A stretch of DNA of 35,480 nucleotides from Pseudomonadota bacterium. Lineage in GTDB: Bacteria > Desulfobacterota > Desulfovibrionia > Desulfovibrionales > Desulfovibrionaceae. The translations under genes and the position numbers were made by a program. Location of the stretch: NCBI GenBank assembly GCA_018816865.1, contig JAHIUW010000024.1, positions 1 to 35,480 of the forward strand. Reading direction: 5' to 3'. How positions within the stretch are numbered: position 1 is the first letter of the stretch; the number at the start of each line of letters is the position of its first letter. The notes under the pieces were generated by a model. The model did no database searches. It was not told where the DNA came from and was given only the letters and a program-made list of their open reading frames with translations. Positions 2,802 to 31,008 of this stretch are shown here, piece after piece.

Positions 2802-2808
2802 TTGGGCC

Positions 2809-2982: not shown

Positions 2983-6357
<3,375 letters not shown>

Positions 6358-11369: not shown

Positions 11370-11393
11370 CTAAAAGACAAATAGCAGTGCACT

Positions 11394-11966: not shown

Positions 11967-11968
11967 CA

Positions 11969-12601: not shown

Positions 12602-12620
12602 TACTAATTGAGAGACACAG

Positions 12621-13544: not shown

Positions 13545-13570
13545 ACCCCCTGTTTAACCCAAAACAAAAA

Positions 13571-13600
13571 AAGGACTCCGATTATTTGTCTGGAGTCCTT
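13571..13600. terminator. terminator of the ECF operon
   Basis: Nine-base arms AAGGACTCC (13571-13579) and GGAGTCCTT (13592-13600) around a 12-base loop, 26 bases beyond the lipoprotein stop. An A-run precedes the stem and a T-containing stretch follows (TTAACTTTCTT), so it could work in both directions. Confidence 0.75.
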
Positions 13601-13611
13601 AACTTTCTTGC

Positions 13612-13664
13612 GGTGAAGCTGGAAGGAATCGAATCCACGACCTCTTGAATGCCATTCAAGATGC
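13612..13664 (-). tRNA. decayed 3' half of a tRNA-Ala(GGC) gene, likely attachment-site remnant
   Basis: Read on the minus strand this contains an intact anticodon arm (CTTGA-ATGGCAT-TCAAG, anticodon GGC), a variable region AGGTCG, a T-arm with a TTCGATT loop but poor stem pairing, and the acceptor 3' strand CAGCTTCACC. The 5' half (acceptor, D arm) is absent. It resembles the 3' half of deltaproteobacterial tRNA-Ala(GGC) with a few substitutions, from my memory of such genes. Tyrosine recombinases typically integrate in tRNA 3' ends and leave such copies; two recombinase genes begin 0.6 and 2 kb to the right. It is not a functional tRNA. Confidence 0.6.
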
Positions 13665-14248
13665 GTGATCTTCATGGAGATGCACTCGTCGTATTATCGA
13701 GAAAAGATGACGACTGAAACAGAAATCATCCTTCAAAACTTGCTTAAGCATTTTCTGGCGTGATATGCTTAATGCATAACCACAGGTTGATTCTGTAATA
13801 CATAGGAGGTAAAACGCACTAAGGCGCGTTCATAAGTTTTGACGAAAGTCTAAACTGATGAACGCATAAACTGGCACTAACGTGCCGAAACATCTAATAC
13901 TTCTTTGCCGTTCATTTCCAAACGGCAGACATTCACATCCAAACGCCAGCTGAAACGCAGCACCCGCCATCGGACAAACGGTAGATACCTATAAATCTAT
14001 CGTTGCCCAAATTCCCCCATGGTCATCATTATATGCGCAGGACGAACGAGCCTGCGTGATGACACCCCTTATTAAATGGATTTCTTGAATTTCTCATTCA
14101 GTGGGAAACGGACATTGATTTGTTCCGCTATCGGTTGTTGCGTGGCGCATTTACGCGCCATAGGCAGGTCATTTTCTGGCGAACAGAAAAGGTCCGACCT
14201 GCTTTGTCCCAGGGCACTGCCCTGAACTATTATTGAAGGAGAAGTTCA
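13665..14248 (+). other. hairpin-dense non-coding leader before the first recombinase
   Basis: 584 bases without a credible gene (one 18-codon ATG frame at 13,707 is the only small candidate). It holds at least five short strong dyads: GGCAC/GTGCC at 13873-13886, TGCCGTT/AACGGCA at 13906-13927, TGGCGC/GCGCCA at 14143-14160, a two-part stem GCAGGTC and TTTTCTG with their complements at 14164-14202, and CAGGGCA-C-TGCCCTG at 14210-14224. The last lies just ahead of the recombinase ribosome site (GAAGGAGAAG) and could be an operator. The region may also carry recombinase binding sites; none was identified. Confidence 0.5.
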
Positions 14249-15208
14249 ATGACAAAATCCATCAGCTTGGTATACGGCGCGAACAGGGCAACCCTGTCCG
14301 GTCCGCGCTCGAAACAACACAGAATACGGCAGAACGCCAAAGTTTTTGCAAAAAGACTAAAAGAAGCAGGATATGGGGTCCGTAAATGGTCTAAGATATC
14401 CAACAAACATTTTTCGGCAGTGGCTGACAAAATGAAAGAAAATGGCACGGGTGACGGGCGTATAGCAGAAGTGTTCTCTGCAGCCCGTCACCTGTGCGAA
14501 ACATATGGCAATACAGGCATTAGCCCGACTAATAATGTCTTCGACGTCAGGCGCGGAAGCATTGCCAACGCTAATAGTAAAGCGGTTGCCCCCGCCTTTG
14601 TGCAGGGGGCAATCGACAAGCTGGCAAACGAGGTCAAGTATGAATACGGGCCGCGAGCCGCTGCACAGATAAGATTACAGTATGAGCTCGGATTACGCCG
14701 AGAAGAAGCAGCCAAAGTTGATCTGATCAGCGATTGGGACCGAGAAAGCTGTAGTCTTCATGTCCAGTATGGGACAAAAGGCGGCAGACCAAGAACGCTT
14801 TACAACCTGTCGTGGCAGCAGCAAGAAGCATTGGAAAAAGCACTACCATATGTCAGTCAATCTGACAGGCCCGGAATACACAACCTCATGCCTGAAGGTA
14901 TGGGCGACAAGTGGCAGGAGAAACTGTCTTACGCGGCTGGATTGTGCGGCTTCACGAAGAAGGAGAGCGGTTGGACGCTCCACAGTAATCGGCACGAAAG
15001 GTTCCACCGCATGTACGTCGATCACACTGGATTTCTGCCTCCCAATCAGCATGAGTCTGTGGAAGCCTTTCAACAGGCCGCTCAAAATGCGGCAGGGGAT
15101 GAATGGCCTCGGCTGGATGCTGAAGCGCGTGACGCCATTGAAGTTACTGCCGGCCATTCTGCCGGTCGCCGGGATGTGTCTGACGCTTATCTTGGTTGTA
15201 GTCATTAA
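14249..15208 (+). CDS. tyrosine recombinase, phage-integrase-like (Integrase_1 type)
   Basis: 319 residues. An N-terminal helical DNA-binding part (about 1-115) with KVFAKRLKEAGYGVRKWSKI precedes a C-terminal catalytic part. The active-site set can be traced: Arg150 in GLRREEAAKV, a beta-hairpin lysine in GTKGGRPR, His245-x-x-Arg248 in LHSNR, His303 in AGHSAGRR and the nucleophile Tyr314 in DAYLGCSH, close to the C-terminus as expected. The overall pattern fits the Phage_integr_N/Integrase_1 group found on integrative elements rather than lambda-type integrases. Start: ATG 14249 with GAAGGAGAAG seven bases upstream. All residues needed for activity seem present, so it may be functional. A second, unrelated tyrosine recombinase lies 0.4 kb downstream. 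Confidence 0.85.
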   Translation: MTKSISLVYGANRATLSGPRSKQHRIRQNAKVFAKRLKEAGYGVRKWSKISNKHFSAVADKMKENGTGDGRIAEVFSAARHLCETYGNTGISPTNNVFDVRRGSIANANSKAVAPAFVQGAIDKLANEVKYEYGPRAAAQIRLQYELGLRREEAAKVDLISDWDRESCSLHVQYGTKGGRPRTLYNLSWQQQEALEKALPYVSQSDRPGIHNLMPEGMGDKWQEKLSYAAGLCGFTKKESGWTLHSNRHERFHRMYVDHTGFLPPNQHESVEAFQQAAQNAAGDEWPRLDAEARDAIEVTAGHSAGRRDVSDAYLGCSH

Positions 15209-15210
15209 TC

Positions 15211-15238
15211 AAAGCCCCGCCATTTTGTGCGGGGTTTT
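15211..15238 (+). terminator. terminator of the first recombinase
   Basis: CCCCGC and GCGGGG (within AAAGCCCCGC...GCGGGGTTTTCT) form a compact GC stem with an 8-base loop and a following T-run, starting two bases after the recombinase stop codon. Confidence 0.8.
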
Positions 15239-15250
15239 CTTGTGGGAACA

Positions 15251-15335
15251 GGTTGAAGAGTGAGATTGACTCGTCAATCTCGCTCTTCAACCATCAGCCC
15301 TGTTTATCGTCTTGGAGACGACAAACAGGGCTGAT
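15251..15335. repeat. two adjacent long hairpins
   Basis: First hairpin 15251-15292: GGTTGAAGAG-T-GAGATTGA, loop CTCG, then the complement with a single T/G mismatch, so a 19-pair stem. Second hairpin 15293-15335 abuts it directly: ATCAGCCCTGTTT and CGTC pair with GACG and AAACAGGGCTGAT. They have no sequence in common. They separate the first recombinase from the excisionase-like gene and follow a normal terminator, so a simple terminator role is not enough to explain them. Confidence 0.8.
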
Positions 15336-15458
15336 TCTGCATCAAATGGAAAATATCCGTGGTCTCTTCCTTGTGCTCAAAGGTTCTGCTGTGCTTAAAC
15401 TGAAGGGTTGGCTGAGTTTGCGGGCGTGATTGCCCGATGAAAATGACAACCCGGAAGA

Positions 15459-15797
15459 ATGATGACCTTTGACACCGATCTGAAGACCCGCGTATTATTT
15501 GCCAAGGACGTTGCTGCGTTCTTGGGCAAAAGCGTTGACTGGGTCTACGACAATGCCGAAGCAATCGGCGGCGTAAAATGCGGTGGGTCGTGGTTCTTCC
15601 CGAACGAGGAAGATATCTATGACCGTTTATTCCAAAGCCGGGAAAGGGTACCGGTACGATTTCATGGTAAAGGGCAAGCGCCACACCAAGGCGTGGTTCA
15701 AAACAAAACGGGCCGCAAAAGCGGCAGAAGCCGAAAAAAGGAAGGAAGTAAAAGCACAACTGGCGATGGAAGCCCAGGGCGACATGGCCTTGCTTGA
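15459..15797 (+). CDS. excisionase-like helix-turn-helix protein
   Basis: 112 residues. Residues 12-60 form a winged helix-turn-helix of the excisionase/HTH_17 type: LFAKDVAAFLGKSVDWVYDN, a GGVKCGGSWFFP wing, then EEDIYDRL. Such proteins bind DNA near att sites and steer the integrase toward excision, or act as repressors. The remaining about 50 residues are basic and low-complexity and lie in an alternative frame of the next gene, so they may be an accident of overlap. GGAAG stands just before the ATGATG start. The overlap of 179 bases with the integrase is unusually long. Confidence 0.68.
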   Translation: MMTFDTDLKTRVLFAKDVAAFLGKSVDWVYDNAEAIGGVKCGGSWFFPNEEDIYDRLFQSRERVPVRFHGKGQAPHQGVVQNKTGRKSGRSRKKEGSKSTTGDGSPGRHGLA

Positions 15798-16698
15798 TCT
15801 GCTGAACCTGCGCTTGGATTACTTGCTGGACCGCGCATATTCCGAGTCGCATTACAAGAAGACCAAATATGCTGCTCAACGGCTGTTGGATTATCTGGGC
15901 AATGTAGCGTGCAGCACCATCACCCGCTTGAAGGCCGATGAGTTTCTAATGGCTTTGGTAAAGGAAAGCACCCCTGTTGCCGGCAACAACGATCTAAAGG
16001 TCCTTCGGGCATCGTTTTCCTGGGCCATGAAACGTGGGCAGCATTTCATTCAGAACAATCCCTTTGCGGGGCTGGAAACGTTTCCCAATGATAAGCCTAA
16101 GGAAAAGAAACGGACTCCGACGAGTGAAGAACTGGATCGTATCATCGAAGCAGCCAAGCCTAAGCACCGTCCTTACTTGTGGGTATTGCGCGAAACCTTG
16201 GCCCGTAGCATCGAAGTGCACCGACTCAAATGGAAACGGGTCAACTTCGAAAAACGGTACGTCGAGCTGAAGACGTTCAAGAACAAAAACAGGGAACCGG
16301 TCTTGCGTGAAATCCCGATGACGGACAAGCTGTATGAAGTCCTGTTGGACCTGTACAAAAAGCGTGACCCTGACAAGGAATGGGTATTCTGGCACAGGTA
16401 TTACAATGCCAAGACCCGCAGTATGGAAGAAGGTCCGTACAAGCGTGGCAGATATACCATGCTCCAAAACACTTGCAAACGGGCCGGTGTGGATTACTAC
16501 AGCTTCCACCGCTTCCGAGCATCAGGTGCATCCGTCATGGACAACCATGGCGCCTTGCTTCCAGGTATCCAACGTGTCCTTGGACATGCCGATCGTCGAA
16601 GCACGGAAATCTACCTGGAAAAACTCCGTGACGTCGAACGTGACGCCATGGATGTCTACGAAAGGGAAAGCCGCAAGGATGACAATAAGGTCGCGTAA
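15619..16698 (+). CDS. int: site-specific tyrosine recombinase (phage-type integrase)
   Basis: 359 residues from ATG 15619, which has GAGGAAG upstream and begins an arm-site-binding domain (YSKAGKGYRYDFMVKGKRHT); a frame start at 15583 adds 12 residues without support. A SAM-like core-binding domain follows (about 55-155, LLDLLNLRLDYLL to WAMKRGQHF), then the catalytic domain. Catalytic residues: Arg196 in LARSIEVHRL, lysine in LKTFKNKN, His297-x-x-Arg300 in SFHRFRASG, His323 in LGHADRRS and nucleophile Tyr332 in TEIYLEKL. Architecture and length are normal for a phage or genomic-island integrase, so it should be active. It partly overlaps the excisionase-like gene in another frame and is followed by its own terminator near the right edge of the low-GC region. 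Confidence 0.93.
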   Translation: MTVYSKAGKGYRYDFMVKGKRHTKAWFKTKRAAKAAEAEKRKEVKAQLAMEAQGDMALLDLLNLRLDYLLDRAYSESHYKKTKYAAQRLLDYLGNVACSTITRLKADEFLMALVKESTPVAGNNDLKVLRASFSWAMKRGQHFIQNNPFAGLETFPNDKPKEKKRTPTSEELDRIIEAAKPKHRPYLWVLRETLARSIEVHRLKWKRVNFEKRYVELKTFKNKNREPVLREIPMTDKLYEVLLDLYKKRDPDKEWVFWHRYYNAKTRSMEEGPYKRGRYTMLQNTCKRAGVDYYSFHRFRASGASVMDNHGALLPGIQRVLGHADRRSTEIYLEKLRDVERDAMDVYERESRKDDNKVA

Positions 16699-16732
16699 CA
16701 AATCCACACACGCGGTTCACACACAAACACAA

Positions 16733-16764
16733 AACGGGTTGCAGACATCAGTCGGCAACCCGTT
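16733..16764 (+). terminator. terminator of the integrase gene
   Basis: Perfect 10-base arms AACGGGTTGC (16733-16742) and GCAACCCGTT (16755-16764) with a 12-base loop, followed by GAAAAC. It lies 35 bases past the integrase stop. Around it are several CACACAC strings (16704-16732, 16791) that could be recombinase arm sites, though this is only a pattern. Confidence 0.7.
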
Positions 16765-17027
16765 GAAAACTGAAGGAAAGAGCCGGTAGTCACACACAAA
16801 GGTCGTGGCTATTCCAAAGGGGGTTCAGGGGGCTTGCCCCCTCAGCCCCTTTGGGCGCGCCGCAGGCGACCATCCTGGGCTGACCCCTGCCCTCCCCGCG
16901 ATTCTGACCTGCCAATCTTCCCTCTTTTTGGGTGCGCCGCAAGCGGACACGTTGGTCCAACCACAGACGGCCTCCGCCGCAGGCGGTCCTCCATCGACCA
17001 ACTCCCTTCTCATCTTGTACAACGAAA

Positions 17028-17053
17028 AAGGCCCCGACTTTCGCCGGGGCCTT
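17028..17053 (-). terminator. terminator of the envelope operon
   Basis: AAGGCCCCG (17028-17036) and CGGGGCCTT (17045-17053) form a perfect 9-pair stem with an 8-base loop, 33 bases past the stop of the giant protein gene; on the minus strand TTTTTCG follows. The gap 16,790-17,027 is GC-rich again, has no gene with coding character, and probably contains the right boundary of the island. Confidence 0.85.
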
Positions 17054-17085: not shown

Positions 17086-20000
17086 CTAGTTGGTGCGCAC
17101 GTTGGTCGTGCCGTTGCTCTGCACCGCGTACTTGATGTTGGTCGTGAAGATGGCCGATGCCGGAGGCGTTTCGCTGGAACTTAAGATCTGCATCTTGCCG
17201 TAGAGGCCCTCGGTGGTCTTGAAGGCATAGACCTTGCCCGCCACGATGGGCTCGCCGGCAAAGGCCCCGTAGCCGCTTGTGGGTGCCGTGGTCAGGCCGT
17301 CGAAGCTGCTGGACACTTCCTGGATGGTGGAGGTGTTCTGGCTCCATAGGATGTTACCCTCGAAGCCCAGGTCTGCCGTGCCCGAGGCGGGTTCGGACTG
17401 GGCACCTGTCTCGAAGTCGATGCAATCCGAGGGAGCGCCGGTGTCCGCCACAATGGAAGCGGTCTGCACACTGATGGCCGAGCCGCCGCTGACCCCGCCG
17501 CTGTCCTCGGTGTCGCCCGCGCCGGGCTGTGTCGCCGTGCGCTCATCGCGCGCCGTGCGGACCTGATCCACCACGTTCTGCGACAGGCCGCTGGCCTCGG
17601 CGATCTCGGGCGAGAGGGTGGCGTACAACAGGTTGCCGCGCATGTTGCTGATCTTCATCAGCCCGTCCTCGGGCACAAAGGTCATGGTGGTGCGGCCCGT
17701 GGTGGTCTGCTGCTGCCCTGTGGAGCGCGGGATCTGCTTCTTGTCCCACTTGGTCTCCACCGTGGCGAAGCCCTTGCGCACGTCGATGCGGTTGACGAAG
17801 ATCTTCAGCTGGATGGCGCTGAACATGTCGAAGTCGAAGCGCACGCCTTCCTCCAGGAAGGCGCGGTTGCCCAGATAGTCGCGCGAGATGAGCTGGCCGA
17901 AGGCTGCCGCGCTCTGGGCCTCGTAGGCCTCGGCCAGTTCCTTGATCGCATTCAGCACCAACTGGGTGTAGTCCACGTTCTCGTAGACCACCCAGGCGTC
18001 CTGCAGCAGCTTCATGTACACATCGTCTTTGCCGGGGCCACGTTTCAGGCGCAGCACGAATTCGTAGCGCTGCCCCGCTGCGGGCAGGAACTCGAAGCCG
18101 ATGTCGCGTGAGACCTGCATCTCGTCCCAGGTGCGCCCGGCGTCGAGGGACAGCAGCATGGCTTCCACGCCCTCGATCTCCGAGAGGCGGGCCGTGACGC
18201 GGATACGGCCGTTGTCCAGTTCGTCACGCGAGACCGTGATCTGGCGCTCGAAACCCGTGACCGCCCGGGTGTTCAGGCGCACGTCGCTGATATAGAACAT
18301 GCTCTGGGCGGCCAGGTCATGGGACTCGGCCAATGCGGCTGCGTTTGCGGCATCCAGGGCGGCTTTGGCGGCGGCCTCGCGCTCTGCGGCGCCCGCGGCG
18401 TTGCGTTGGGCCTCCAGATAATTGGCGCGCATGGTGATGGACTCGTCCAGGAGTTCCAGCAGCTTGGCGTAGGCCTCGCCTGTCTCGGACTCGCGCAGGG
18501 CGTCGTCTTCCAGATTCAGGGTTTGGTCCTCGCTGTACCAGCCGTTCTTGGCCTGTCTCAGGGACTGCGGGACCAGCTTGGCGATCTCGTCCAAAGTCTC
18601 TGTCCAGCTCTTTTCCTTTTCGTAGTTCAGGTCTTTGGCCTTTTGAATGGCCTGCTCCACATCCTTTTTGTACATGGGCGCGGAGTGATACATCATGTTG
18701 TCGTCCGTGGCCGGGGTGACGTGACCCATGTTCGAGGCCTGTTGCGCCCATTTGACCACACCCGGGAAGCTCCTGGCGATGAAGGACCACTCCTTGTAGG
18801 CCTGCAGCTTGACCAGCCACTGCTGGCCGAATTTGGTCAGTTCCGTAGAATCCATGTAGTGCGGATAGGGTTCCATGAGCGCACCCTCGCCCGCGTCATT
18901 GAGATAGACATAAGGACTCAACTCGCCGCGATCGTCGGAGCGCAGCATCCGTTCGTGCTGGCTCAGATTGAAGATGAACATGGTCATCTCCATTTCCTTG
19001 GGGGCCAGATAGCCGATGTCCTGGGAGATGTTGTTGTTATTGGTGCGGATGGCGCGTTCATGCTGGGTGATTCTTGACTCCCAGTTGGGCAGATAGCCGG
19101 TCCAGCCGTTCAGGGCATTGTTGATGGCCGTTACCCGTTTGTCGATGGCCTGCTCGGGGTCATCTCCTCCGTAGCCGAAGGCACTGAAGTAGCGCAGTTC
19201 CTTCGAGCTGGGCTTCGTCCACAGCCTCCATTTGGCTTTCATGGTCTCCAGTCTCTGTCGGCTGGCCTTCAGGCGCTGGCGCTCGTTGTTCATGGTTTCG
19301 TCATTGATCATGCCTTGCATGGTCAGGACTCGTGACTTGATGGCCCGGGGGACTTCGGTCAGGCTTTTCACCTCGGGGAATGTGCTGATGGCGGTATAGG
19401 TGCCCAGTTCGTATCTGGGAGGCCCCTGTTCCCAGAACGGGGGGCTGAGGGCCTCTTCCATCTGCTGCAGGAAACGGTTGTATTGATCCCATTTGCCGCT
19501 GGCGTAGCTGGCGATGTCGTAGAAGGGGCCACCCATGGCGCTGAGTCGGGAGACCTCGGCCGCCAGCCAGGCTTCGTCTTCGGCCTGAAACCGATTCAGA
19601 AGCGTGGAAGCTTCACCGAGATACATCGCCTTGTTCTTGTTCTGTTCGCCCAAGGCGCTCAACTCGTCCATCATGCCGTCATAATGTCCTTTGATTCTCG
19701 TTTGGATATCAGTGCGGGCCTGGGCGATGGCCTCGCTGGCCAGTTCGAAGCGGCCGGTATTGTAATGCTTGAGTACCTCGGCTTCGACCCCGGTCATGAG
19801 TCCTTTCTCGGTGTCAATATTGTAGCGCTGGGCCATTTTCATGACGAGGTCGCGATTCTGGACGGCATCGATGGGCTGTTGCTGCAGATAGTCGGGCAGC
19901 GGATCGGGAAGCTTGCCCGCCTTGCGCAGTCGCTCTACGATTTGGCGGTCGAATTCGTTGCTCTCTCTGGTCGCTTTATCGTGTTCCAGCGCCCATTTGT

Positions 20001-21276
20001 CCTTGATCTCATCGAGGATTTTCTCGGCTGCGTCCAATCTGTCGCGGACCTTTTCCAGCAACTGGTACCAGCGGTTGCTTTCGGCTTCCAGCTCCGTGGA
20101 CAGCCCGACATCGATGTGCATGGCGCTCTCCGAGGCCCGCTTGAGACTGGTCACGATGCCCCACAGTTCCTGGGTGCTATTGGAGAGGATCGTGAACATG
20201 GAGGCCTTTTCCTCTTCTTTTTTCGCCTCCATGGCCTTTTCAATGCGTGCTTCGTAGGGGGGGAATTGGGCTCTGCTTTCTGCAAGCTGCTTCTTGAGCT
20301 CGGGCAGTTTCTTTTTGGCTTGTTCCCGCATCATGTACAGGCCCTGCAGGCGAGGCAGGTCGTTGCTCACGAAACGGCCCATGCGCTGCGCAAAGTCCTG
20401 GAACTTGGCCAGCTCCTGATCCATGCGCATCTGGCGGTAGCGGACCATGGCCTGCTTGTTGACGTCGGTCAGCAGGGAGCGGATCCAGCCCCGGGCCACG
20501 TTCTCCAGCTCCCCGGTGAGCGCTGTCACCTCGTCGGCCTGTTTGGTGTCCACGCCCGAACCCACGGCCATGGCGCCCGAGAGGTACTGGCTCCAGGTCT
20601 GTTCCGGCCATTCCTGGCCAAGGGCGGTGGTCACATAACTTTTGACCAGGGCCCGGGTCCCGGCATTGGTGACTACGTAGTCGCGGAAAAAATAATCCAC
20701 TGTGGCGGCATTGACGTTGATCTGGGCCGGGGCATCGGCGCTGGTCTCGCCGATGACCATGCGGTCGTGCTCCACAATGCCGTACAGGGCCTCGATGTCG
20801 CGTGCCGCGCCCGTGGATTGGACCAGCAGGTGTGATTCGTACGCGGCCTTGGACGCAGCCCAGATAGCCGAAACAGCCGGGTTGTTCAGCTTGCCCACGA
20901 TGGCGTCGGTGCTGGCGATGACGGCCTGATCGTAGTTGCCGGCCCCCAATTGCGAGGCCACGTTTTGCACCGTGGCGATCATGTCCGTGATTTCGGTGAC
21001 CTTGTCGTTCAGCTCGTTGTAATTGTCCACGGCCTTGATGGCGGACCAGCCACCCAACTGGCTCATCACCCAGTTCGAAATTTCGTCCTTGGCCACATCC
21101 TCGGCGGCCTTGGCCACGTTCTTGCTCTCGGCCGTGGCCTGCGCCAGCGACAGACCAAGGCCAGCGACGGTGTCGGCTTTGGGGCCGGCGAAGGCGGGCG
21201 CTGGGGTAAGGAGGAAGGACAGGCACAGGAACAGCACAAGGGCCTGAGTCGCGGAGAGACGGCAAGAATATCTCAT
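17086..21276 (-). CDS. giant exported protein of unknown function with an NTF2-like domain
   Basis: 1396 residues. Residues 1-30 are a signal peptide (hydrophobic core ALVLFLCLSFLLTP, cleavage after AFA). From 31 to about 980 it is mainly helical with coiled-coil-like stretches (REQAKKKLPELKKQLAESRA near 320; alanine-rich EAQRNAAGAAEREAAAKAAL near 955) and no further membrane segment. At about 990-1080 is a beta-rich, Ig-like part. Residues about 1105-1215 are an NTF2-like fold clearly similar to the whole of the small protein encoded upstream (AEAY, FGQLISRDY, VETKWDKK, GLMKISNMRGN). The last about 115 residues form a separate beta-rich domain with CIDFETGAQ and KVYAFKTTEGLYGKMQI. A GAGG site precedes ATG 21276. 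It follows the NTF2-like gene by 20 bases. No known function recognised; an extracellular or periplasmic scaffold role is inferred from size and partners. Confidence 0.85.
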   Translation of the reverse strand: MRYSCRLSATQALVLFLCLSFLLTPAPAFAGPKADTVAGLGLSLAQATAESKNVAKAAEDVAKDEISNWVMSQLGGWSAIKAVDNYNELNDKVTEITDMIATVQNVASQLGAGNYDQAVIASTDAIVGKLNNPAVSAIWAASKAAYESHLLVQSTGAARDIEALYGIVEHDRMVIGETSADAPAQINVNAATVDYFFRDYVVTNAGTRALVKSYVTTALGQEWPEQTWSQYLSGAMAVGSGVDTKQADEVTALTGELENVARGWIRSLLTDVNKQAMVRYRQMRMDQELAKFQDFAQRMGRFVSNDLPRLQGLYMMREQAKKKLPELKKQLAESRAQFPPYEARIEKAMEAKKEEEKASMFTILSNSTQELWGIVTSLKRASESAMHIDVGLSTELEAESNRWYQLLEKVRDRLDAAEKILDEIKDKWALEHDKATRESNEFDRQIVERLRKAGKLPDPLPDYLQQQPIDAVQNRDLVMKMAQRYNIDTEKGLMTGVEAEVLKHYNTGRFELASEAIAQARTDIQTRIKGHYDGMMDELSALGEQNKNKAMYLGEASTLLNRFQAEDEAWLAAEVSRLSAMGGPFYDIASYASGKWDQYNRFLQQMEEALSPPFWEQGPPRYELGTYTAISTFPEVKSLTEVPRAIKSRVLTMQGMINDETMNNERQRLKASRQRLETMKAKWRLWTKPSSKELRYFSAFGYGGDDPEQAIDKRVTAINNALNGWTGYLPNWESRITQHERAIRTNNNNISQDIGYLAPKEMEMTMFIFNLSQHERMLRSDDRGELSPYVYLNDAGEGALMEPYPHYMDSTELTKFGQQWLVKLQAYKEWSFIARSFPGVVKWAQQASNMGHVTPATDDNMMYHSAPMYKKDVEQAIQKAKDLNYEKEKSWTETLDEIAKLVPQSLRQAKNGWYSEDQTLNLEDDALRESETGEAYAKLLELLDESITMRANYLEAQRNAAGAAEREAAAKAALDAANAAALAESHDLAAQSMFYISDVRLNTRAVTGFERQITVSRDELDNGRIRVTARLSEIEGVEAMLLSLDAGRTWDEMQVSRDIGFEFLPAAGQRYEFVLRLKRGPGKDDVYMKLLQDAWVVYENVDYTQLVLNAIKELAEAYEAQSAAAFGQLISRDYLGNRAFLEEGVRFDFDMFSAIQLKIFVNRIDVRKGFATVETKWDKKQIPRSTGQQQTTTGRTTMTFVPEDGLMKISNMRGNLLYATLSPEIAEASGLSQNVVDQVRTARDERTATQPGAGDTEDSGGVSGGSAISVQTASIVADTGAPSDCIDFETGAQSEPASGTADLGFEGNILWSQNTSTIQEVSSSFDGLTTAPTSGYGAFAGEPIVAGKVYAFKTTEGLYGKMQILSSSETPPASAIFTTNIKYAVQSNGTTNVRTN

Positions 21277-21296
21277 GGGGTCATATCCTCAAGGGA

Positions 21297-21737
21297 TTAG
21301 AAGGGGTTGTCGCCCCGAGTTTGTGTCAATTTCCACAAGCCGTTCTCGGCGCCGAAGACGAAGACCGTGAGGCCGTCGGTCTTGGTCTGGCCTGCGGCGG
21401 TCTGGGCTTTCTTGTTCCAGCGCACGGTCACGGTCATGGTCTGGTCCTTTATCAGTACCTGCTCCACGAAGAACTCGAACTGCACGGCCTGCTCGGACCT
21501 GGCGGCCTGGTCCATGCGGTTCAGGTAGTCCTGACGCTGTGGGCTGAAGTCCTGGGAGACGAGATGGGCGAACCCGGCGCGGCTGCCGCCTGCGTAGGCG
21601 TTCAGCAGTTCCTGGACCGCGGCCCGCGCCTGGTCCTCATGGTCGGTGTGCAGGGCCGGGCCCGTAGCGCAGGCCGGGGCGACCCACAGCAGGGCCAGCA
21701 GCAGCGTGGCCACGAGGGGCAGAGTCGGGTGTTTCAT
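21297..21737 (-). CDS. small exported NTF2-like protein
   Basis: 146 residues with a signal peptide (LPLVATLLLALLWVAP, cleavage after ACA). The mature part is one NTF2/SnoaL-like domain: helices VQELLNAYAGGSRAGFAHLVS, then strands VQFEFFVEQVLI, MTVTVRWNKKAQ, LTVFVFGAENGLWKLTQTRGD. The same order of elements occurs inside the giant protein at about 1105-1215 (for example FGQLISRDY, VETKWDKK, GLMKISNMRGN), so the two arose by domain duplication or exchange. NTF2-like domains bind ligands or protein partners; no catalytic residue set is evident. Its ATG overlaps the stop codon of the barrel gene by one base (TGATG), and the giant protein gene starts 20 bases after its stop, so the three genes form one operon. 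Confidence 0.85.
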   Translation of the reverse strand: MKHPTLPLVATLLLALLWVAPACATGPALHTDHEDQARAAVQELLNAYAGGSRAGFAHLVSQDFSPQRQDYLNRMDQAARSEQAVQFEFFVEQVLIKDQTMTVTVRWNKKAQTAAGQTKTDGLTVFVFGAENGLWKLTQTRGDNPF

Positions 21738-23479
21738 CAGAAGTTGCTCACGAGTTTGAGGGAATAGCGGGCCTCGGAATAATCGTTGCCTGCGCTGTCG
21801 TATTCGTAATCGTTGTGCTCGCTGCGCAGGCTGAGCACCGTGTTGCGCTGCTCGGCCAGGCGGTAGGCGAATTCCAGAAAGCGGGTGTTGATCTGATAGT
21901 CCTGGGCCGTGCCCGTGTTGGCTGCGTCCTGCAGGTTGTAGCCGAAGTTCATGCTCAGCGGCTCGGCAAGGGCGTAGCGGCCATTGAAGGTCAATCCGTG
22001 CTGCATGTCCTGGCCTTCGGTGCCGTAGTTGTCACGCAGGTTGCCGGTGTATCCGGCGGACAGATACAGGCGGCGGGCGAAGACGTCGAAGTCGCGGCTC
22101 AGGTTGAAGCCGTAGCGCCAGAAGTCCTCGTTGTCCACGGTCTGGGGCCGGGCCGTGAAGTGCCGGAACTCGCCAAAGGCGCTGACGTTGGCTTCCCAGA
22201 GCTTGTCGTTGACGCTGGCTCCCAGGGTCACGGTCTTGGAGTCGGCGGTGTTGGCCTCGTCGTTGGAATCCTTGGCCTGGTTGTTGAGGTAGGTGCGCAA
22301 CGAGAAGTTGCGGCGGGCCTCCAGGGGGCGACTCATGAGCGACAGGTACTGCTCGTTGTAGCGGGTGCGGTAGGCCTTGTCGCTGTTCGGCAGGTCGTCC
22401 CAATACCAGTTCTGCGTCAGGGACAGGGTGTGGGCCGCATTGATGCGCCAGTCCGCTGTGATCTGGTGCTGCTGCTTGTCGCTGGAGGCCGAGCCCACCA
22501 GGGTCCGGAATTCCGGGTCCACGCGGTAGGCGAGGTAACGAACGCCCAGAAGATTCTTGTAGCGGTAGCCGGGCATGATCCGCAGCGCGGTGCCGTAGAT
22601 GCGGCGGTCCACGACGTCCTCGTCCTCGATGTAGCCGCTGCGGGCCAGTTCGAACACCAGGGACGCGCCGTTGCGCAGTCTGAGTTCGCCGTCGATGCCC
22701 GCCACGTTGTTGTCCTGGTCCGTGGCTCCGGGGTCGTTCTCCAGGGAGGCGGTGTCGTCGTCCACGGACACGGCCTGGACGCCGATGCGGCACAGGGACA
22801 CGGAGGGATGGTCGGCAAAGGGCGTCAGGTCGACCTTGGCCCCGTAGATGTCGCGTTGGTAGAGGCCTTTGCCGGATTCGTACGTCCGGGCCACAACGGT
22901 CTTGGTCTGCAGCCAGTCGGAGAGGGTCAGCTCCGCGTTGGCGCCCTCAAGGCTGGCGCTCATCACGAACTGGCTGAAGTCGGTGTAGAAGTCGCCGAAC
23001 TCAAACAGGTTTTCGTTGTTGGAGACCGCGAGGTTCAGCTGCTTCAGGACCACGGCGTTGCGCGACTCCATGCGTTGGTTGTCGGTCTTGCGCAGGTTGG
23101 CCTCGCCCTGGAACTGGTAGTCCGAGACGAGTTTCTCGTAGACCTTCAGGTCCAGCTCCATCAGGTGGTCCTTGTTGTCGTCGCGATAGAAGGACTTGGC
23201 CTGGTTGCCGCGGACGCTGGTGTAGTCGCCCTGCAAAGCGACGCGACCGGTGATCATGCCCGAGCGGTCCTCGCCGTATTGGCCGTAGGCCCCGAAGTCC
23301 ATTAGATCGTTCAGGCGTTGCTGCATGGGGAAGGAAGGGGTGACCTTGGGAGCCGCTCCTCCGTCTGTACCGTTGCCCAGAAAGATGATCTCTGCGGCCA
23401 AGGCCGGGAAGACGGAGCTTGAAAAGAGCATGACCAGGACAAGAATAAACAGTCTTTGGACGACGTGTGCTGTTGGCAT
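21737..23479 (-). CDS. outer-membrane beta-barrel protein
   Basis: 580 residues. A signal peptide (LFILVLVMLFSSSVFPALA) is followed by a short non-barrel segment and then, from about residue 60, many alternating amphipathic strands with aromatic girdles (VYEKLVSDYQFQGEANL, NLFEFGDFYTDFSQFVMSA, YGFNLSRDFDVFARRLYLSA). The final residues YSLKLVSNF end in Phe after an alternating pattern, the recognition signal for the BAM machinery. No TonB box or plug domain, and no adhesin or porin family recognised. It is the first gene of the operon with the NTF2-like protein and giant exported protein, which points to a membrane pore or anchor for them. The start has no strong ribosome site. Its upstream region 23,480-23,780 is AT-rich and probably carries the promoter. 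Confidence 0.8.
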   Translation of the reverse strand: MPTAHVVQRLFILVLVMLFSSSVFPALAAEIIFLGNGTDGGAAPKVTPSFPMQQRLNDLMDFGAYGQYGEDRSGMITGRVALQGDYTSVRGNQAKSFYRDDNKDHLMELDLKVYEKLVSDYQFQGEANLRKTDNQRMESRNAVVLKQLNLAVSNNENLFEFGDFYTDFSQFVMSASLEGANAELTLSDWLQTKTVVARTYESGKGLYQRDIYGAKVDLTPFADHPSVSLCRIGVQAVSVDDDTASLENDPGATDQDNNVAGIDGELRLRNGASLVFELARSGYIEDEDVVDRRIYGTALRIMPGYRYKNLLGVRYLAYRVDPEFRTLVGSASSDKQQHQITADWRINAAHTLSLTQNWYWDDLPNSDKAYRTRYNEQYLSLMSRPLEARRNFSLRTYLNNQAKDSNDEANTADSKTVTLGASVNDKLWEANVSAFGEFRHFTARPQTVDNEDFWRYGFNLSRDFDVFARRLYLSAGYTGNLRDNYGTEGQDMQHGLTFNGRYALAEPLSMNFGYNLQDAANTGTAQDYQINTRFLEFAYRLAEQRNTVLSLRSEHNDYEYDSAGNDYSEARYSLKLVSNF

Positions 23480-23867
23480 GGCGGCCTATTCTCGAAGGAG
23501 GTGCAGGTTGATACGGAGTACGCGAGTTGTCGGGTCAATAGTAATGAAGGGTTCTTAACACTGCTTTACTCATCTGGTCCATACCCTGCCAATAATACGT
23601 TGATATGTTTCAAATGTCGGCTTGTAGCAGGCTTTTTTTTGGAAAAGAACAGATAATGCATCGTTTGTTTGGCTGTGTTTTGCACCGCAAAACTCTTTCT
23701 GGAGTGCACTGCCTGAGGGCATGACGGCAGCGGGAGGGTCAAGTCCTGAACACTGTGAGGGCCTAGGCACAAAACACTTGAACCCCGGATAGATCCGGAG
23801 TTCGTTTATGGAAAAGCAAGTGGTGGAACGGTGTTGCCAGACGTTGGGAAAAGGCCCGGGGGTTGGT
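23480..23867. other. intergenic region between the envelope operon and the ABC operon
   Basis: 388 bases with no credible gene. It should contain the promoter of the minus-strand envelope operon in its left, AT-rich half. Near its right end AACCCCGGAT (23781-23790) and ATCCGGAGTT (23793-23802) form a 9-of-10 pair stem with a 2-base centre, a weak candidate for the end of the ABC transcript. Confidence 0.5.
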
Positions 23868-24620
23868 TCAGGCCCTGGCCGGGCCGTGGGCGAGGAGATT
23901 CCGGCATGCGGCCTGGATGGTCGCCAGTTCCGGGGAGTGCAGATCGCGGGGTCGGGGCAGCGGGATGTCGAACCCCGCGAGGAGGCCCTGGCCGTGTTTC
24001 AGCAACAGGATGCGGTCCGCCAGTTTGGCGGCCTCGGCCACGTCGTGGGTGACCATCAGGATGGCCGGGGTGAACTCGGCGTGCAGCTCCAGAAGCAGGT
24101 CGTGCATCTCCTCGCGGGTCAGGGCGTCCAGGGCCGCAAAAGGCTCGTCCATGAGCAGCAGGCGCGGGCGCATCACCAGCACGCGCGCCAGGGCCACGCG
24201 TTGGCGCATGCCGCCCGAGAGTTCGCGCGGCAGCCGGTCCAGGCTGCCTGCCAGGCCCACGCGTTGGAGCATGGCGGTGGCCTGGGCGCGGCGTTCGCGG
24301 CGTGGGACCCCGGCGGCCTTCAGGCCGAAGGCCACGTTCTGCTGGGCCGTCAGCCAGGGAAACAGGGCGTCTTCCTGAAAGACCACGGCCTTGTCCGGTT
24401 CCGGGGTCACGGTGGGTTGCCCAGCCAGGCGGACCTCTCCTTCGTCGGCGCGACGGAAGCCGGCCAGGATGTCCAGCAGCGTGGTCTTGCCGCAACCGCT
24501 GACCCCGATGAGCGCCACGATCTCTCCCGGGGCCAGGGCAAAAGAGACCCCGGCCAGCACCGGGGCTTCGGGCTGTGCGTAGTGGGCCGTGATGCCTTGG
24601 ACCTCCAGCAGGACGCTCAT
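23868..24620 (-). CDS. ABC transporter ATP-binding protein, NitT/TauT type
   Basis: 250 residues, the ATPase of a SsuB/TauB-like importer. Walker A is GVSGCGKTT (about 39-47), the Q-loop is in VVFQEDALFPW, the ABC signature is LSGGMRQRVALAR, Walker B is LLLMDEPFAALD and the switch histidine is in LMVTHD. Start ATG 24620 overlaps the permease stop by four bases (ATGA), which indicates translational coupling; an ATG nine bases earlier is possible. Last gene of the radical SAM/SBP/permease/ATPase operon. The substrate is not shown by this subunit. Confidence 0.94.
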   Translation of the reverse strand: MSVLLEVQGITAHYAQPEAPVLAGVSFALAPGEIVALIGVSGCGKTTLLDILAGFRRADEGEVRLAGQPTVTPEPDKAVVFQEDALFPWLTAQQNVAFGLKAAGVPRRERRAQATAMLQRVGLAGSLDRLPRELSGGMRQRVALARVLVMRPRLLLMDEPFAALDALTREEMHDLLLELHAEFTPAILMVTHDVAEAAKLADRILLLKHGQGLLAGFDIPLPRPRDLHSPELATIQAACRNLLAHGPARA

Positions 24621-25417
24621 TCTCGGCATCTCCTGGCGCTGACAAAGGTCAGGCGCAACAGCCCCATCAGCAGCCGGTCGCAGGCCAGGCCGATGAGCGC
24701 GATGACCACGATGCCGCCCATGACCATATCCACCCGGCCCAGCATGCGTGCGTCCATGATGGTCGCGCCCAAGCCGTCGGGTACGCCGGTCAGCTCGCCC
24801 AGGACCAGATAGGCGAAGGACAGGCCGAGCCCCAGCCTCAGTCCGGCCAGGATGTGGCTCATGCCCGCGGGGAGCACCACCTGACGTAGCAGCCCCGGGC
24901 CGGACAGACCCAGCATGGCCCCTGCCCGGACCAGGGTGCCCGGGACCGAAGCCACGCCCGCGGCGGTGTTCAGGTAGATGGGGAAGAACGCGGCCAGGGT
25001 GATGAGGAAGACCGTGGTCCGAAAGCCGATGCCGAACCAGACCAGGGCCAGGGGCAGCCAGCAGATGCCGGGCACGGCCCGCATGGAGTCCACGAATCCG
25101 GCTAGCAACTGTTGCACGGGGCGCAGACGGCCCGAAAGCACCCCCAGGGGCAGGCCCAGGGCCGTGGCCAGGCCGAAGCCGCAGCAGATGCGCCACAGGC
25201 TGGCCAGGGTGTCGCCCGCAAAGCGCCCGGCATAAGCCGCGCTGCCCGGCTCGCCCAGGACGTAGATCCACAGGGTCCGGCCCACGGTGTGCGGGGGCGG
25301 CAGCATATACGCGGGCGTGAACCCGCCATAGCTCAGCAGCGCCCAGACCCCGAGCAGGAAGAGCGGGGCCGCCACGGGCAACAGGATTCGCAGGGGTTGG
25401 GCGGTGGGACTGGTCAT
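24617..25417 (-). CDS. ABC transporter permease, NitT/TauT type
   Basis: 266 residues with about six membrane helices (LRILLPVAAPLFLLGVWALL at the N-terminus; FLITLAAFFPIYL; MVMGGIVVIALIGLA near the end). The inner-membrane permease loop that contacts the ATPase is visible as the EAA-like segment in VRAGAMLGLSGPGLLRQVVLPAGM. This layout is that of SsuC/TauC permeases, which work as homodimers. Start ATG 25417 overlaps the stop of the binding protein by four bases; the longer frame from 25630 is only antisense/alternate-frame extension. Transport direction is import by family. Confidence 0.93.
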   Translation of the reverse strand: MTSPTAQPLRILLPVAAPLFLLGVWALLSYGGFTPAYMLPPPHTVGRTLWIYVLGEPGSAAYAGRFAGDTLASLWRICCGFGLATALGLPLGVLSGRLRPVQQLLAGFVDSMRAVPGICWLPLALVWFGIGFRTTVFLITLAAFFPIYLNTAAGVASVPGTLVRAGAMLGLSGPGLLRQVVLPAGMSHILAGLRLGLGLSFAYLVLGELTGVPDGLGATIMDARMLGRVDMVMGGIVVIALIGLACDRLLMGLLRLTFVSARRCRE

Positions 25418-26355
25418 GGGGTGCGCTTGTGGGCCTTGACGAATTGCAGGTCGATCAGGGCCCCGTAGTCGGGCTCGGCCTCGATGACGCCCAGGGCCAG
25501 CATGCGCTTGCCCAGGGCGCGGACCCGGCCCAGGAAGGCCTGGTCCATGTCCCAGGCCAGTTCCATGTTCGGGGCGGCCAGGCGCAGGATCTCGATGTCC
25601 GTGCCGAATCCGGCGGCGCGCCTGAGCCACTGGTCGGGGTGGGCGCGCAGATGCTCGGTGGCCTTGGCGTGGGCGTCCACCAGGGCCTGGACGCGCTCGG
25701 GGTGCTCGGCGATGGTCCGGGCCTGCACCAGCATGCCCGCGTTGATGCTGCCCACGGTGTCGTCGTAGTAGGGCTGGGCCAGGATGTGCCCGAAGCCCTG
25801 GCTTGCGGCCAGGGACGGAAAGGGCTCGCCCGACAGGAAGGCGTCGATGTCGCCCCGGGCCAGGGCCATGCCCATATCGAAGAAGTCCACCCGGGTCAGG
25901 CGCACGTCCTTGGCGGGATCGAGTCCGCTGCGGGTCAGGGTCTCGCGCAAGAGGATTTCATGCATGGTCCCGGGCACGTAACCGATGCGCCGTCCTTTGA
26001 GGTCGGCCACGGACCGGACCGGGCCGTCCTTTTTGACCACCAGGGCCGAGCATTTGTTGCACAGCGCCGCCACCACCACCACGGGTTCGCCGCGCGAGGC
26101 CGAGGCGATGGCGTGGGCCAGGGTGGTGCCGCACATGTCCAGGCTGCCCGCCAACAGCGCGGACTTCTGGTCCGCGGGGTTGGTGAAGGGGAAGACCTGG
26201 ACCGGATGGCCGGTGGCCTGCTCATAGAAGAAGGGCTGGATGGTCTGGGCCGTCTTCCAGGTGCCCACTTTCCAGGGCTCGTCCGCCCTGATCGGGGCGG
26301 CGGTGGTGAACAGGATCAGCCCGCACAGGGCCAGCAGGGCGATGACGGTGCGCAT
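25414..26355 (-). CDS. periplasmic substrate-binding protein, NMT1/TauA-like
   Basis: 313 residues with a signal peptide (VIALLALCGLILFTTAAPIRA). The mature part follows the NMT1/SsuA/TauA fold: WKVGTWKTAQTIQPFFYE, a KSALLAGSLDMCGTTLAHAIAS stretch typical of the first lobe, DLKGRRIGYVPGT and RGDIDAFLSGEPFPSLA. These proteins bind small organic molecules such as sulfonates, nitrate, or thiamine-precursor pyrimidines. An unusual CNKC pair occurs near residue 99. It starts three bases after the stop of the BioB-like radical SAM gene, with GGAG upstream, so the enzyme and importer are made together. The ligand may be a precursor or product of that enzyme; the sequence cannot identify it. Confidence 0.9.
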   Translation of the reverse strand: MRTVIALLALCGLILFTTAAPIRADEPWKVGTWKTAQTIQPFFYEQATGHPVQVFPFTNPADQKSALLAGSLDMCGTTLAHAIASASRGEPVVVVAALCNKCSALVVKKDGPVRSVADLKGRRIGYVPGTMHEILLRETLTRSGLDPAKDVRLTRVDFFDMGMALARGDIDAFLSGEPFPSLAASQGFGHILAQPYYDDTVGSINAGMLVQARTIAEHPERVQALVDAHAKATEHLRAHPDQWLRRAAGFGTDIEILRLAAPNMELAWDMDQAFLGRVRALGKRMLALGVIEAEPDYGALIDLQFVKAHKRTP

Positions 26356-26358
26356 GGC

Positions 26359-27423
26359 TCAGCTCCTCAAGGGGGCGTAGAGGTCGGAGGGGCAGGGGCC
26401 GGGCGCGTGGAGCCTGGCCTCGGGGCCGAAACAGTTGGACGGCAACAGCGGGTCCAGGCCCATCTCGTCCAGGATGCGCGCGCAGCGGTCCAGGTCCGAG
26501 CCGCGGCCCTTGGCCGAGTCGGCTTGAAGGTCGCGCGGGCTGGAGCCGCATTCCGGGAAGAACAGGTTGGCCCCGGCCAGGAGCGCTGCGGTGTTGGGCT
26601 CGTGGGTGCAATGGGCACGCGGCACATCGCCCATGACCAGGCGGCTGACCGCGACCATGCGCGCCATCTCCCGCTCATTGATCATGCCGTGGGGCTCCAT
26701 GGGCGAGCCCGGGAAATTGATGCGGCGCATGACCCCGGAATAGGTGGCCCCCTGCTCGCGGGCGAAGACCATGAGTTCGGCGATCTCGCGCTTCTGATGC
26801 TCGGGTCCCACGGGCTCCACGCAGTTCATCCATTTCAGGCCCAGGTCCCTGAAGACCTGCACCGTGTGGCGCCGGGCCTCGGGCTTGAAGGGGGTGTCGC
26901 GGCCCTCGCCCAGGCGCACCGCGTGGTAGCAGCCCACGAACCCGGCCTCCAGCAGGGCCTCTCCTTCCTTGTGGCTGATGTCGCGGGTGTTGGCCACCAG
27001 GGGCACGGAGACGGCGGCCTTGAGGTATCGGCCGCACTCCAGGAGTTTCTGGAAGCCGTAGGTGCCGGTGGTCATGATGTTCAGGGCGTCGGCGCCCTTG
27101 GCCTCGGCGTCGCGGGCCCAGGTCAGCACCTGTTCGCGGCTGAACTCCACGGGCTCGGTGAAGATCCCGGCGCTGGGGGTGAGCGAACAGAAACGGCAGT
27201 CGAAGCGGCATTGCTCCACGTTCAGCCCGATGTGGTAATGGCGTTCGCCCTTGTTGCCGAAGGTCAGACGCGTCATTTTGGCTGCGGCCTCCATGAGCGC
27301 GTAGACCTCGCGCGAGCACAGGTCCAGGGTCAGCAGGTGTTCGGCCTCCTCCACGGTGAGTCCGTCCATGGCCAGGGCTTTCTTGATGAGTTCGTCGACG
27401 GCGGGCGAGATGGTCCAGGACAT
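26359..27423 (-). CDS. BioB-family radical SAM protein
   Basis: 354 residues. The radical SAM cluster ligands are Cys72, Cys76 and Cys79 in CRFDCRFC. The protein follows the biotin-synthase fold: an N-terminal helical part with VEEAEHLLTL, a GLNVEQ strand, NIMTTGTY, VANTRDI, RRINFPGSPM and a C-terminal FFPECGSSPRD, near the place where BioB-like enzymes (also HmdB and LipS types) have a G-x-N-P-R-D segment. True BioB has a second cluster with conserved cysteines and an arginine that I cannot confirm, so it is not called BioB. Start ATG 27423 has AGGAG five bases upstream; a longer frame reaches 27480. First gene of the operon with the importer. Substrate unknown; sulfur insertion or methyl/heterocycle chemistry are the options suggested by relatives. 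Confidence 0.87.
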   Translation of the reverse strand: MSWTISPAVDELIKKALAMDGLTVEEAEHLLTLDLCSREVYALMEAAAKMTRLTFGNKGERHYHIGLNVEQCRFDCRFCSLTPSAGIFTEPVEFSREQVLTWARDAEAKGADALNIMTTGTYGFQKLLECGRYLKAAVSVPLVANTRDISHKEGEALLEAGFVGCYHAVRLGEGRDTPFKPEARRHTVQVFRDLGLKWMNCVEPVGPEHQKREIAELMVFAREQGATYSGVMRRINFPGSPMEPHGMINEREMARMVAVSRLVMGDVPRAHCTHEPNTAALLAGANLFFPECGSSPRDLQADSAKGRGSDLDRCARILDEMGLDPLLPSNCFGPEARLHAPGPCPSDLYAPLRS

Positions 27424-27693
27424 GGGGCTCCTAGTGTGTTGAAGGTTGTCCGCATGGGGGGCGGCCCAGGAATCGGCCAATGGTGGGGGGCCTGGGCGAC
27501 AGAACCAAATCAGACTTACTCAGTTATGTCCAGATGGGTTGGGAAAATCAATGCTTACGTGAAGTCTCGATCAAGGAAACCGATGCAAGGGGGCTCGCTC
27601 GCGCAGGGCGGCGGTATCGGGGGTGGTCGTGGGGGTGTTCAGGGGGCTCTTGGGGGAAAAGCTGCTGGGGGGATGTCGGTGCGGGCAAAAAGA

Positions 27694-27730: not shown

Positions 27731-27817
27731 TGGTGCCGAAGGGGAGAGTCGAACTCCCACAAGGTTGCCCTCACTAGGTCCTGAACCTAGCGTGTCTACC
27801 AATTCCACCACTTCGGC
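27731..27817 (-). tRNA. tRNA-Leu (anticodon CAG)
   Basis: Minus-strand cloverleaf of 87 bases including an encoded CCA. Acceptor GCCGAAG pairs with CTTCGGC; D arm GTGGTGGAATTGGTAGACAC; anticodon arm CTAGG-TTCAGGA-CCTAG with anticodon CAG; a long class II variable arm (TGAGGGCAACCTT) as required for leucine; T arm GGGAGTTCGACTCTCCC. All stems pair. Confidence 0.97.
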
Positions 27818-27859: not shown

Positions 27860-28004
27860 GATGTTTTTTGATAATAAAATTTCACATGGTATTCCAGTTG
27901 GTTGGGGAGGCGGAAAAAGGGCCTGTTTTCGTTGCTTGAAGGGCGCGCGCATTTGGGTTAGCTAAAGCCCCTGCCAGGGTGACTCTTGTATTAAGGAAAA
28001 AGAG

Positions 28005-28946: not shown

Positions 28947-28955
28947 GCCAGCACC

Positions 28956-30770: not shown

Positions 30771-31008
30771 CCCCTCGTTCCCCTGTCTTCCTGCCCTTTG
30801 CGGGTCGGCCTTTGCAGAGCTGGCCCCCGTGGCCCGGGTGGTTTTCATGCGCGCCATCCTTCTCCCTTCGCCTCACCTCATCTCTCCCCCCGTTAGTTGT
30901 TTTTTCGTTGCCCTCTTGTCTTTGAATCCTTGCCCGCCTTGGCGCTTAGGGCGGGTGTGTGGGGGCATGCAATGCAGCCCGCGATGTCGGTTCCCGGCGC
31001 GAAAAGTT

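Follow-up and report, generated by a model that had tools for sequence, protein, structure and literature searches.

A Desulfovibrionaceae operon encoding an outer-membrane barrel together with a small and a giant exported protein that have an NTF2-like domain in common, possibly part of a dedicated outer-membrane assembly

Analysis of a 35,480-nt stretch of Desulfovibrionaceae DNA (the window; G000 denotes its genome) revealed a three-gene operon encoding a large outer-membrane barrel, a small exported protein and a giant exported protein of 1396 residues. The sequences support the operon trio, the large barrel and the sharing of an NTF2-like domain by the two other products, both predicted to be exported by a Sec-type route. 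They also indicate that a barrel, a stand-alone protein consisting of an NTF2-like domain with or without an immunoglobulin-like (Ig) domain (Ig-NTF2 or NTF2 protein) and a giant with an NTF2-like end recur in Desulfobacterota and Elusimicrobia. We tentatively propose, without claiming an even chance for it, that the operon represents a dedicated kind of outer-membrane assembly, as yet undescribed, whose giants dock onto the barrel via NTF2-like domains. The system is called undescribed on the basis of Pfam and NCBIfam scans and of searches in open-licence full text: none of the barrels and giants scanned reached a curated Pfam or NCBIfam cut-off, and no account of such a system was present among the matches listed in open-licence full-text papers. 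An earlier interpretation made from the letters of the DNA (the sequence-only reading) had named no system of this composition, and no family above a curated cut-off has supplied a name for the barrels and giants scanned. The novelty lies in the composition of the gene set.

The three genes are located on the reverse strand in the order barrel (21737..23479; 580 residues), small NTF2-like protein (21297..21737; 146 residues, with the domain at about 34-143) and giant (17086..21276). The stop codon of the barrel gene and the start codon of the small-protein gene overlap by one base (TGATG), and 20 bases separate the small-protein stop from the start of the giant. All three products begin with a hydrophobic segment of the signal-peptide type, and the last residue of the barrel is Phe. 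A sigma-70-like promoter candidate with 9/12 matches (23592..23620, reverse strand; consensus match only) lies 5' of the barrel gene. Downstream of the giant gene, on the same strand, a terminator-like hairpin with an 11-pair stem (17028..17053; likewise consensus match only) was found; since 13 terminator-like sites were observed over 9 kb against 7.8 expected, the hairpin at 17053-17028 is weak evidence when taken alone. The operon with its overlap and gap, the hairpin, the terminal Phe and the predicted export of the products had all been described in the sequence-only reading and were recovered as described.

Comparison with G001, the one sister species available for the operon, showed that the trio is retained there in unchanged order and with identical junctions, a one-base overlap followed by a 20-base gap. 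The barrels are 82% identical, the giants 81% and the small proteins 66% over 128 residues. Ratios of nonsynonymous to synonymous substitution (dN/dS) of 0.16 for the barrel, 0.36 for the small protein and 0.23 for the giant indicated that all three are genes under selection. Cys23 of the small protein (window 21669-21671) lies near the end of the signal peptide, where the sister protein (L011 17474-17914) reads GATGCAG; a non-canonical lipoprotein signal at this residue is possible from the sequence. Two window stretches do not align with G001 here (about 10050-16812 and about 23637-27678), and the operon is flanked by neighbours common to both species. A mobile-element origin of the operon was rejected on the grounds that it lies between these shared neighbours and that the integrase-bearing stretch at this place is found in the window only.

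BLASTP analysis of giant residues 1100-1215 against the small protein returned 28% identity (E 6e-13, single comparison). An independent profile was derived from Ig-NTF2 proteins of named relatives (12 sequences, none belonging to the genus of the window) and run against 539 six-frame segments from the window and 34 kb of G001. It matched four of them, the giant and the small protein of both species, with E-values of 4.5e-27 and 5e-29 for the giants and 5.9e-6 and 8.9e-9 for the small proteins, and it spanned residues 1003-1223 of the window giant. The segment pairs AY..FGQL / AY..FAHL, V.TKWDKK / V.VRWNKK and GLMKISNMRG / GLWKLTQTRG occur in the two proteins. Chance similarity between the two NTF2 regions is ruled out by this profile, and on sequence grounds the domain common to giant and small protein is homologous. 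The domain sharing first suspected from these segments was thereby upheld, as was the profile similarity proposed at the time as its check, since one genus-free profile matches both proteins.

In a structural model, giant residues 1103-1214 adopt an NTF2 fold (Z 13.3, root-mean-square deviation 2.1, 101 aligned residues, against an NTF2 design). Natural NTF2-like proteins score at Z about 12, and the top Foldseek match is the CaMKII hub domain (E 3.6e-4). The modelled residues 1101-1215 thus show the alpha+beta cone of the NTF2-like superfamily, to which the small protein is assigned through its sequence homology to this domain. The likeness to known members of the superfamily (DUF4440, SnoaL, the CaMKII association/hub domain) is one of fold, and for the CaMKII hub one of fold only. 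In sequence the domain described here scores below curated cut-offs, and its setting differs in that it is placed close to the C-terminal end of a giant exported protein. The small protein scored 19.5 bits against DUF4440 (E 0.0013, cut-off 25.2) and 13.1 bits against SnoaL_3 (cut-off 22), both from Pfam; the giant matched neither. The nearest curated sequence model for the small protein is the NCBIfam entry NF051431 Rv0361_Cterm (E 7.4e-7), where its 29.4 bits stay below the cut-off of 37. NF051431 is described as a membrane protein family and is not known to include a barrel or a giant. PDB matches between the small protein and PLL lectins involved repeated stretches of ~20-30 residues and were deemed spurious.

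The giant carries further recognisable domains, all given here on the reverse strand. Its N-terminal helical domain (residues about 81-340; 20257..21036) is conserved in distant giants, and residues 13-338 are 39% identical with the giant of the Desulfobacula locus L083. Towards the other end, an Ig-like domain defined by the coverage of the Ig-NTF2 profile (residues about 1003-1100; 17977..18270) precedes the NTF2-like domain, which is delimited by BLASTP, profile and fold (residues about 1101-1215; 17632..17976), and the protein closes with a beta domain (residues about 1286-1396; 17089..17421). The beta domain, taken from about residue 1285 to 1396, resembles the end of a 440-residue Ig-NTF2 protein from a relative (BLASTP, E 4.3e-8), and a profile of it (Cbeta, which includes a row from the window) found the same domain closing the stand-alone Ig-NTF2 proteins of some relatives. 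A possible resemblance of the beta domain to HmuY was not retained, as Pfam gave no such match for the giant at E 10 or for a relative at E 1. In relatives the Ig region matched Big_7 below the Pfam cut-off, and in two proteins of L048 it matched Mo-co_dimer with 24.3 and 26 bits (cut-off 22.7). The window giant holds a whole Ig-NTF2-beta module that is often a separate protein in relatives, and its stand-alone partner is a bare NTF2 protein. The Ig-like and beta domains are additions to the sequence-only reading. The model of residues 31-1230 was poor overall, with a mean predicted local distance difference test score (pLDDT) of 52.5 and a predicted template modelling score (pTM) of 0.26; the helical body announced earlier is indeed predicted as helical, at low confidence.

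Searches within the order indicated that the system is rare. The barrel profile matched 3 of 297 genomes (the window's own, G001 and G098), and the giant, used as a query, matched the same three among 99 relatives. G098 belongs to another family and matches the giant solely through a 206-residue NTF2 protein beside a 553-residue barrel; a giant is absent near these two genes. In a sample of 395 genomes from the phylum, the window's own included, 19 matched some part of the giant and 18 matched the barrel profile. An alignment between G140 and residues 318-458 of the giant (E 2.3e-4) was attributed to coiled-coil similarity, with no barrel, Ig-NTF2 or end-domain match around it (L055). The 18 barrel-bearing genomes hold 20 barrel places. 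Sixteen adjoin an NTF2-type gene, one of them (G212) through a partial match at a contig edge; three do not (G183, one of two in G148 and one of two in G212), and the place in G211 lies at a contig edge. Giants adjoin the barrel in five genomes, and a sixth (G370) has a giant on another contig.

The giants of the relatives are about 1000-1400 residues long and terminate in a domain of about 121 residues. When the giants of a single cluster are compared, this end domain is 43-80% identical, including pairs without other detected similarity. The two giants of L042 (1173 and 1055 residues) share an end domain that is 80% identical and nothing else detectable, and the same applies to the giants of L044 (1044 and 1292 residues) with 64% identity. 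A conserved end domain on otherwise dissimilar giants of one cluster is as expected for a common partner. A profile of the end domain of these foreign giants matched 11 of the 395 genomes, five of them strongly and the window's genome not among them; six weak matches (G180, G188, G290, G312, G391 and G410; E 1e-5 to 7e-4) were set aside. Profile-profile comparisons indicated that the foreign end domain is NTF2-like, with a probability of 92 (E 7e-7) against the window set and of 93 (E 4e-7, 81 columns) against stand-alone relatives without window rows.

Scanning named genomes with the end-domain profile identified 25 loci in 24 genomes (L079 and L084 come from one metagenome-assembled genome, MAG). 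Their sources are Syntrophorhabdaceae, Syntrophus, Smithellaceae, Desulfobacula, Geobacter, Desulfuromonadaceae, unnamed Deltaproteobacteria and Elusimicrobia, together with one unlabelled bacterium and one record labelled Omnitrophota (L075), which is probably a stray contig. A barrel gene and an Ig-NTF2 gene were found within 10 kb of the giant and on the same strand in 21 of the 25 loci; the profiles behind these co-occurrence counts were built partly from the same sequences, and the counts show adjacency, not independent discovery. L079 and L084 lie near contig ends, and their MAG has a barrel on another contig. The order barrel, Ig-NTF2 protein, giant, as in the window, was found in all ten of L086, L088 and L090-L097 (nine labelled Elusimicrobia or Elusimicrobiales and L093 labelled bacterium only), and in eight of these ten the giant beside the barrel ends in Ig and NTF2 domains, again as in the window. 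These eight weaken the idea that the window giant is a mere late fusion with an Ig-NTF2 gene.

Genome-wide searches accepting matches at E up to 0.001 revealed a single cluster per genome. All 23 places matching the Ig-NTF2 profile in ten genomes (G000, G001 and 8 of the 24 genomes with end-domain loci) and all 18 places matching the end-domain profile in ten genomes (10 of the 24) fell into one cluster per genome, and the clusters seen contain one to four giants with the end domain. The domain therefore looks like part of one apparatus and not like a general tag; a general sorting tag is ruled out for the ten genomes searched with each profile.

Several genes recur around the clusters of the relatives. 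A tetratricopeptide (TPR) protein is encoded in or beside the cluster in L042 (13804-15033), L044 (13552-14829), L082 (5877-6752), L083 (2335-3510) and L096 (3257-4816), and a secD-/secF-like gene pair, recognised by eye in open reading frame (ORF) lists, lies just 3' of the cluster in L041, L043, L073, L074, L076, L078 and L080. In L074, positions 496-5504 on the 5' side of the giant encode a TonB receptor, a YfiR/HmsC-like protein (scanned on the same contig as L041) and a CHASE8 hybrid histidine kinase; products like these in size and sequence start appear in the ORF list of L073. L125 (6600-10694) and L124 (3-3293) combine a longer barrel of about 645 residues with two NTF2-containing proteins, one consisting of the bare domain and the other larger, possibly a further variant without giants.

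The barrel was modelled with AlphaFold2 on a 21-row alignment, which gave 26 strands with a mean pLDDT of 61 and a pTM of 0.51. Foldseek comparison of this model was led by FimD (E 9.7e-9) and PapC. VIA comparison gave FimD at Z 17.6 with 377 aligned residues and MtrB at Z 17.1 with 458, the most aligned residues among the matches listed. The safe reading of the model is that the protein belongs to the large class of outer-membrane barrels, and this barrel is probably very wide. No convincing Pfam match was obtained for the 21 barrels (best E 0.0088), one of which matched IAT_beta at E 0.031. The window proteins had no Pfam match to an autotransporter or two-partner secretion translocator family and gave nothing in a PADLOC scan. 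Sequence searches of the PDB returned no convincing match for the giant or the barrel, nor for the profiles of the barrel and of the end domain. Weak NCBIfam and PADLOC matches of relatives to CIS13 (E 0.00088, far below the cut-off), LmuB (E 0.00032) and SorT (E 0.00082, in the Ig region) were not accepted.

Dimers and rings are common among NTF2-like domains, the CaMKII hub being one example. Docking is proposed because this property coincides in one cluster with dissimilar giant bodies, one end domain, a barrel and a free-standing copy of the domain. The giant would pass the inner membrane by means of its signal peptide, and its NTF2-like domain would then pair with the stand-alone NTF2 protein. 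This pairing would dock the giant on the wide barrel, and after docking and threading the barrel would anchor the long helical body and most likely expose it on the cell surface, where it would act as an adhesin or scaffold. The sequence-only reading had suggested that the two domain-sharing proteins bind a common partner or co-assemble, in an apparatus for export, anchoring or surface scaffolding, and this interpretation is supported in part.

Two known systems help to place this proposal. One is SprB-SprF in the type IX secretion of Bacteroidota, a type B CTD protein with a PorP-like barrel. SprB is a giant protein. PMC9143113 reports the barrel SprF bound to the adhesin SprB, and the likeness lies in a C-terminal domain by which an exported cargo is retained at an outer-membrane barrel of its own. 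The end domain here is NTF2-like, however, an extra stand-alone NTF2 protein is present, the barrels lack a PorP-type Pfam match and NCBIfam gave no match for the giant at E 1, hence none to a type IX secretion system (T9SS) C-terminal sorting domain, of which NCBIfam includes models. SprB-SprF is the nearest working analogue, but the parts described here are not family members by the scans done. Chaperone-usher systems (FimD, PapC) resemble the assembly in the large barrel, which has its best listed fold match in FimD, and in the Ig-like domains of the partners. They differ in that none of the 21 barrels matched Usher (Pfam, E 0.1) and in that the partners here are NTF2-type proteins and giants instead of pilins; Pfam scans of the window operon and of 29 cluster and neighbour proteins of relatives detected no PapD-type chaperone or pilin gene.

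Several results weigh against the proposed docking of giants at the barrel. Most of the body of the giant is modelled below 50 pLDDT. In the barrel, residues 21-100 and 461-580 fall below about 55, and the moderate overall confidence leaves the number of strands uncertain; OprD-type porins follow close behind the best fold matches (Z about 16, about 300 aligned residues). The end-domain profile misses the window giant, both in G000 and in the window up to E 10, which indicates that the link is one of family and not of close similarity, and the window is connected to the foreign end domain only via Ig-NTF2 proteins and profile-profile comparison. The phylum sample speaks against an obligate trio: no giant was found in 12 of the 18 barrel-bearing genomes, which hold 10 of the 16 barrel-NTF2 loci, suggesting that the barrel-NTF2 pair acts without giants. 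Constant co-occurrence of the three genes, which the sequence-only reading had put forward as a check, thus held for most loci found through the giant and failed for these. The reverse case, a giant without barrel, which that reading had named as a refutation, was seen in 2 of the 24 genomes, both MAGs: L075 is a 3.7-kb contig with a giant in a MAG without a barrel, and L077 (Syntrophus SW.3.55) has a giant alone within 10 kb and no barrel found in 2.6 Mb, which makes it a counter-example if the MAG is complete. Many NTF2-like domains, moreover, bind small molecules or act as enzymes.

This last property leads to an alternative to which we assign a low probability, namely transport of a small or hydrophobic molecule into or out of the cell, in which the barrel would be a channel, the NTF2-like domains periplasmic binding or enzymatic pockets of the SnoaL/ketosteroid-isomerase type and the giant a periplasmic scaffold near the channel. 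SnoaL2 and ketosteroid-isomerase-like proteins appear among the fold matches of the giant's NTF2-like domain, the barrel matches OprD-type porins and AlgE in fold, and in the ten loci mentioned above the barrel-NTF2 pair occurs with no giant found. A barrel of ~26 strands nevertheless exceeds typical diffusion porins, and the 43-80% identical ends on dissimilar giants of one cluster fit a shared ligand no better than a shared partner. It is also unlikely that the giant is a periplasmic helical rod that never reaches the outside and, by way of the barrel and the NTF2 pair, ties the outer membrane either to the cell wall or to the inner membrane. The long helices predicted at low confidence, the lack of any adhesin domain in the Pfam scan of the giant and the presence, in many giants, of another moderately hydrophobic segment within the N-terminal part are consistent with such a tether, but it would make a very wide barrel unnecessary, and the same Pfam scan detected no peptidoglycan-binding domain.

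The fold matches raise another arrangement, of the MtrAB type, in which part of the N-terminal helical domain of the giant would plug the barrel permanently while the rest projects on one side, the barrel being a sleeve and not an exporter. MtrB has 26 strands (PMC7198977), the number also counted in our barrel model, where it is uncertain at pLDDT 61. MtrB leads the matches listed in aligned residues, and the N-terminal domain is the part of the giant's body best conserved at long distance. Yet the MtrB match is nearly tied with FimD and has porins close to it, no CxxCH haem motif, as borne by the multihaem cytochrome of the porin-cytochrome complexes (MtrCAB), occurs in any of the three window proteins, the barrels lack an MtrB-type Pfam match and barrel-NTF2 loci exist in which no giant was found; we consider a permanent plug very improbable. 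Least credible is an absence of joint function, in which an old NTF2-like gene was duplicated and fused within an envelope operon and co-residence reflects shared regulation only, for although the two domains are just 28% identical and the small protein shows the fastest evolution of the three (dN/dS 0.36), two phyla have the combination, in different gene orders and with one cluster per genome.

Other features of the window were recorded alongside the operon. The stretch 10050-16812 contains a gene for an extracytoplasmic function (ECF) sigma factor (11394-11966), a 210-residue product without Pfam match, a 17-kDa surface-antigen-type protein (12621-13544) and integrase-type genes (14249-15208 and 15583-16698). 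In L048 the barrel and two Ig-NTF2 genes likewise lie beside an ECF sigma factor gene and a weakly zf-HC2-like product, with a subtilase-family protein (679-3465) next to the sigma factor gene; L049 and L050 resemble L048 in their ORF lists. The other stretch confined to the window in this comparison (23637-27678), between the operon and a tRNA-Leu gene (27731-27817), contains ABC transporter genes by eye, and G001 has two tRNA-Leu genes at that place. Elsewhere, 2983-6357 encodes an alpha-amylase-type protein and a maltokinase N-cap domain in one chain of 1124 residues, and 27882-30857 is a frame of 991 residues without Pfam match at E 1e-5 that is 67% identical in the sister species.

Taken further than docking itself, the clusters could represent a new class of apparatus for outer-membrane protein export and anchoring in Desulfobacterota and Elusimicrobia, in which a barrel of ~26 strands and a stand-alone Ig-NTF2 adaptor read the NTF2-like end of the giants as a docking or sorting tag and deliver one to four giants per cluster to the surface; this wider claim is possible but doubtful. 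If the proposed assembly is real, it would be a self-contained outer-membrane system whose barrel and giant lie beyond curated Pfam and NCBIfam cut-offs in the scans done, and it would be found in sulfate reducers, Geobacter relatives, syntrophs and Elusimicrobia. In the genus of the window the set comprises three genes and is small enough for deletion and pull-down. The NTF2-like domain would then serve as a docking module for giant exported proteins, which would give a role to giant proteins that currently have none assigned.

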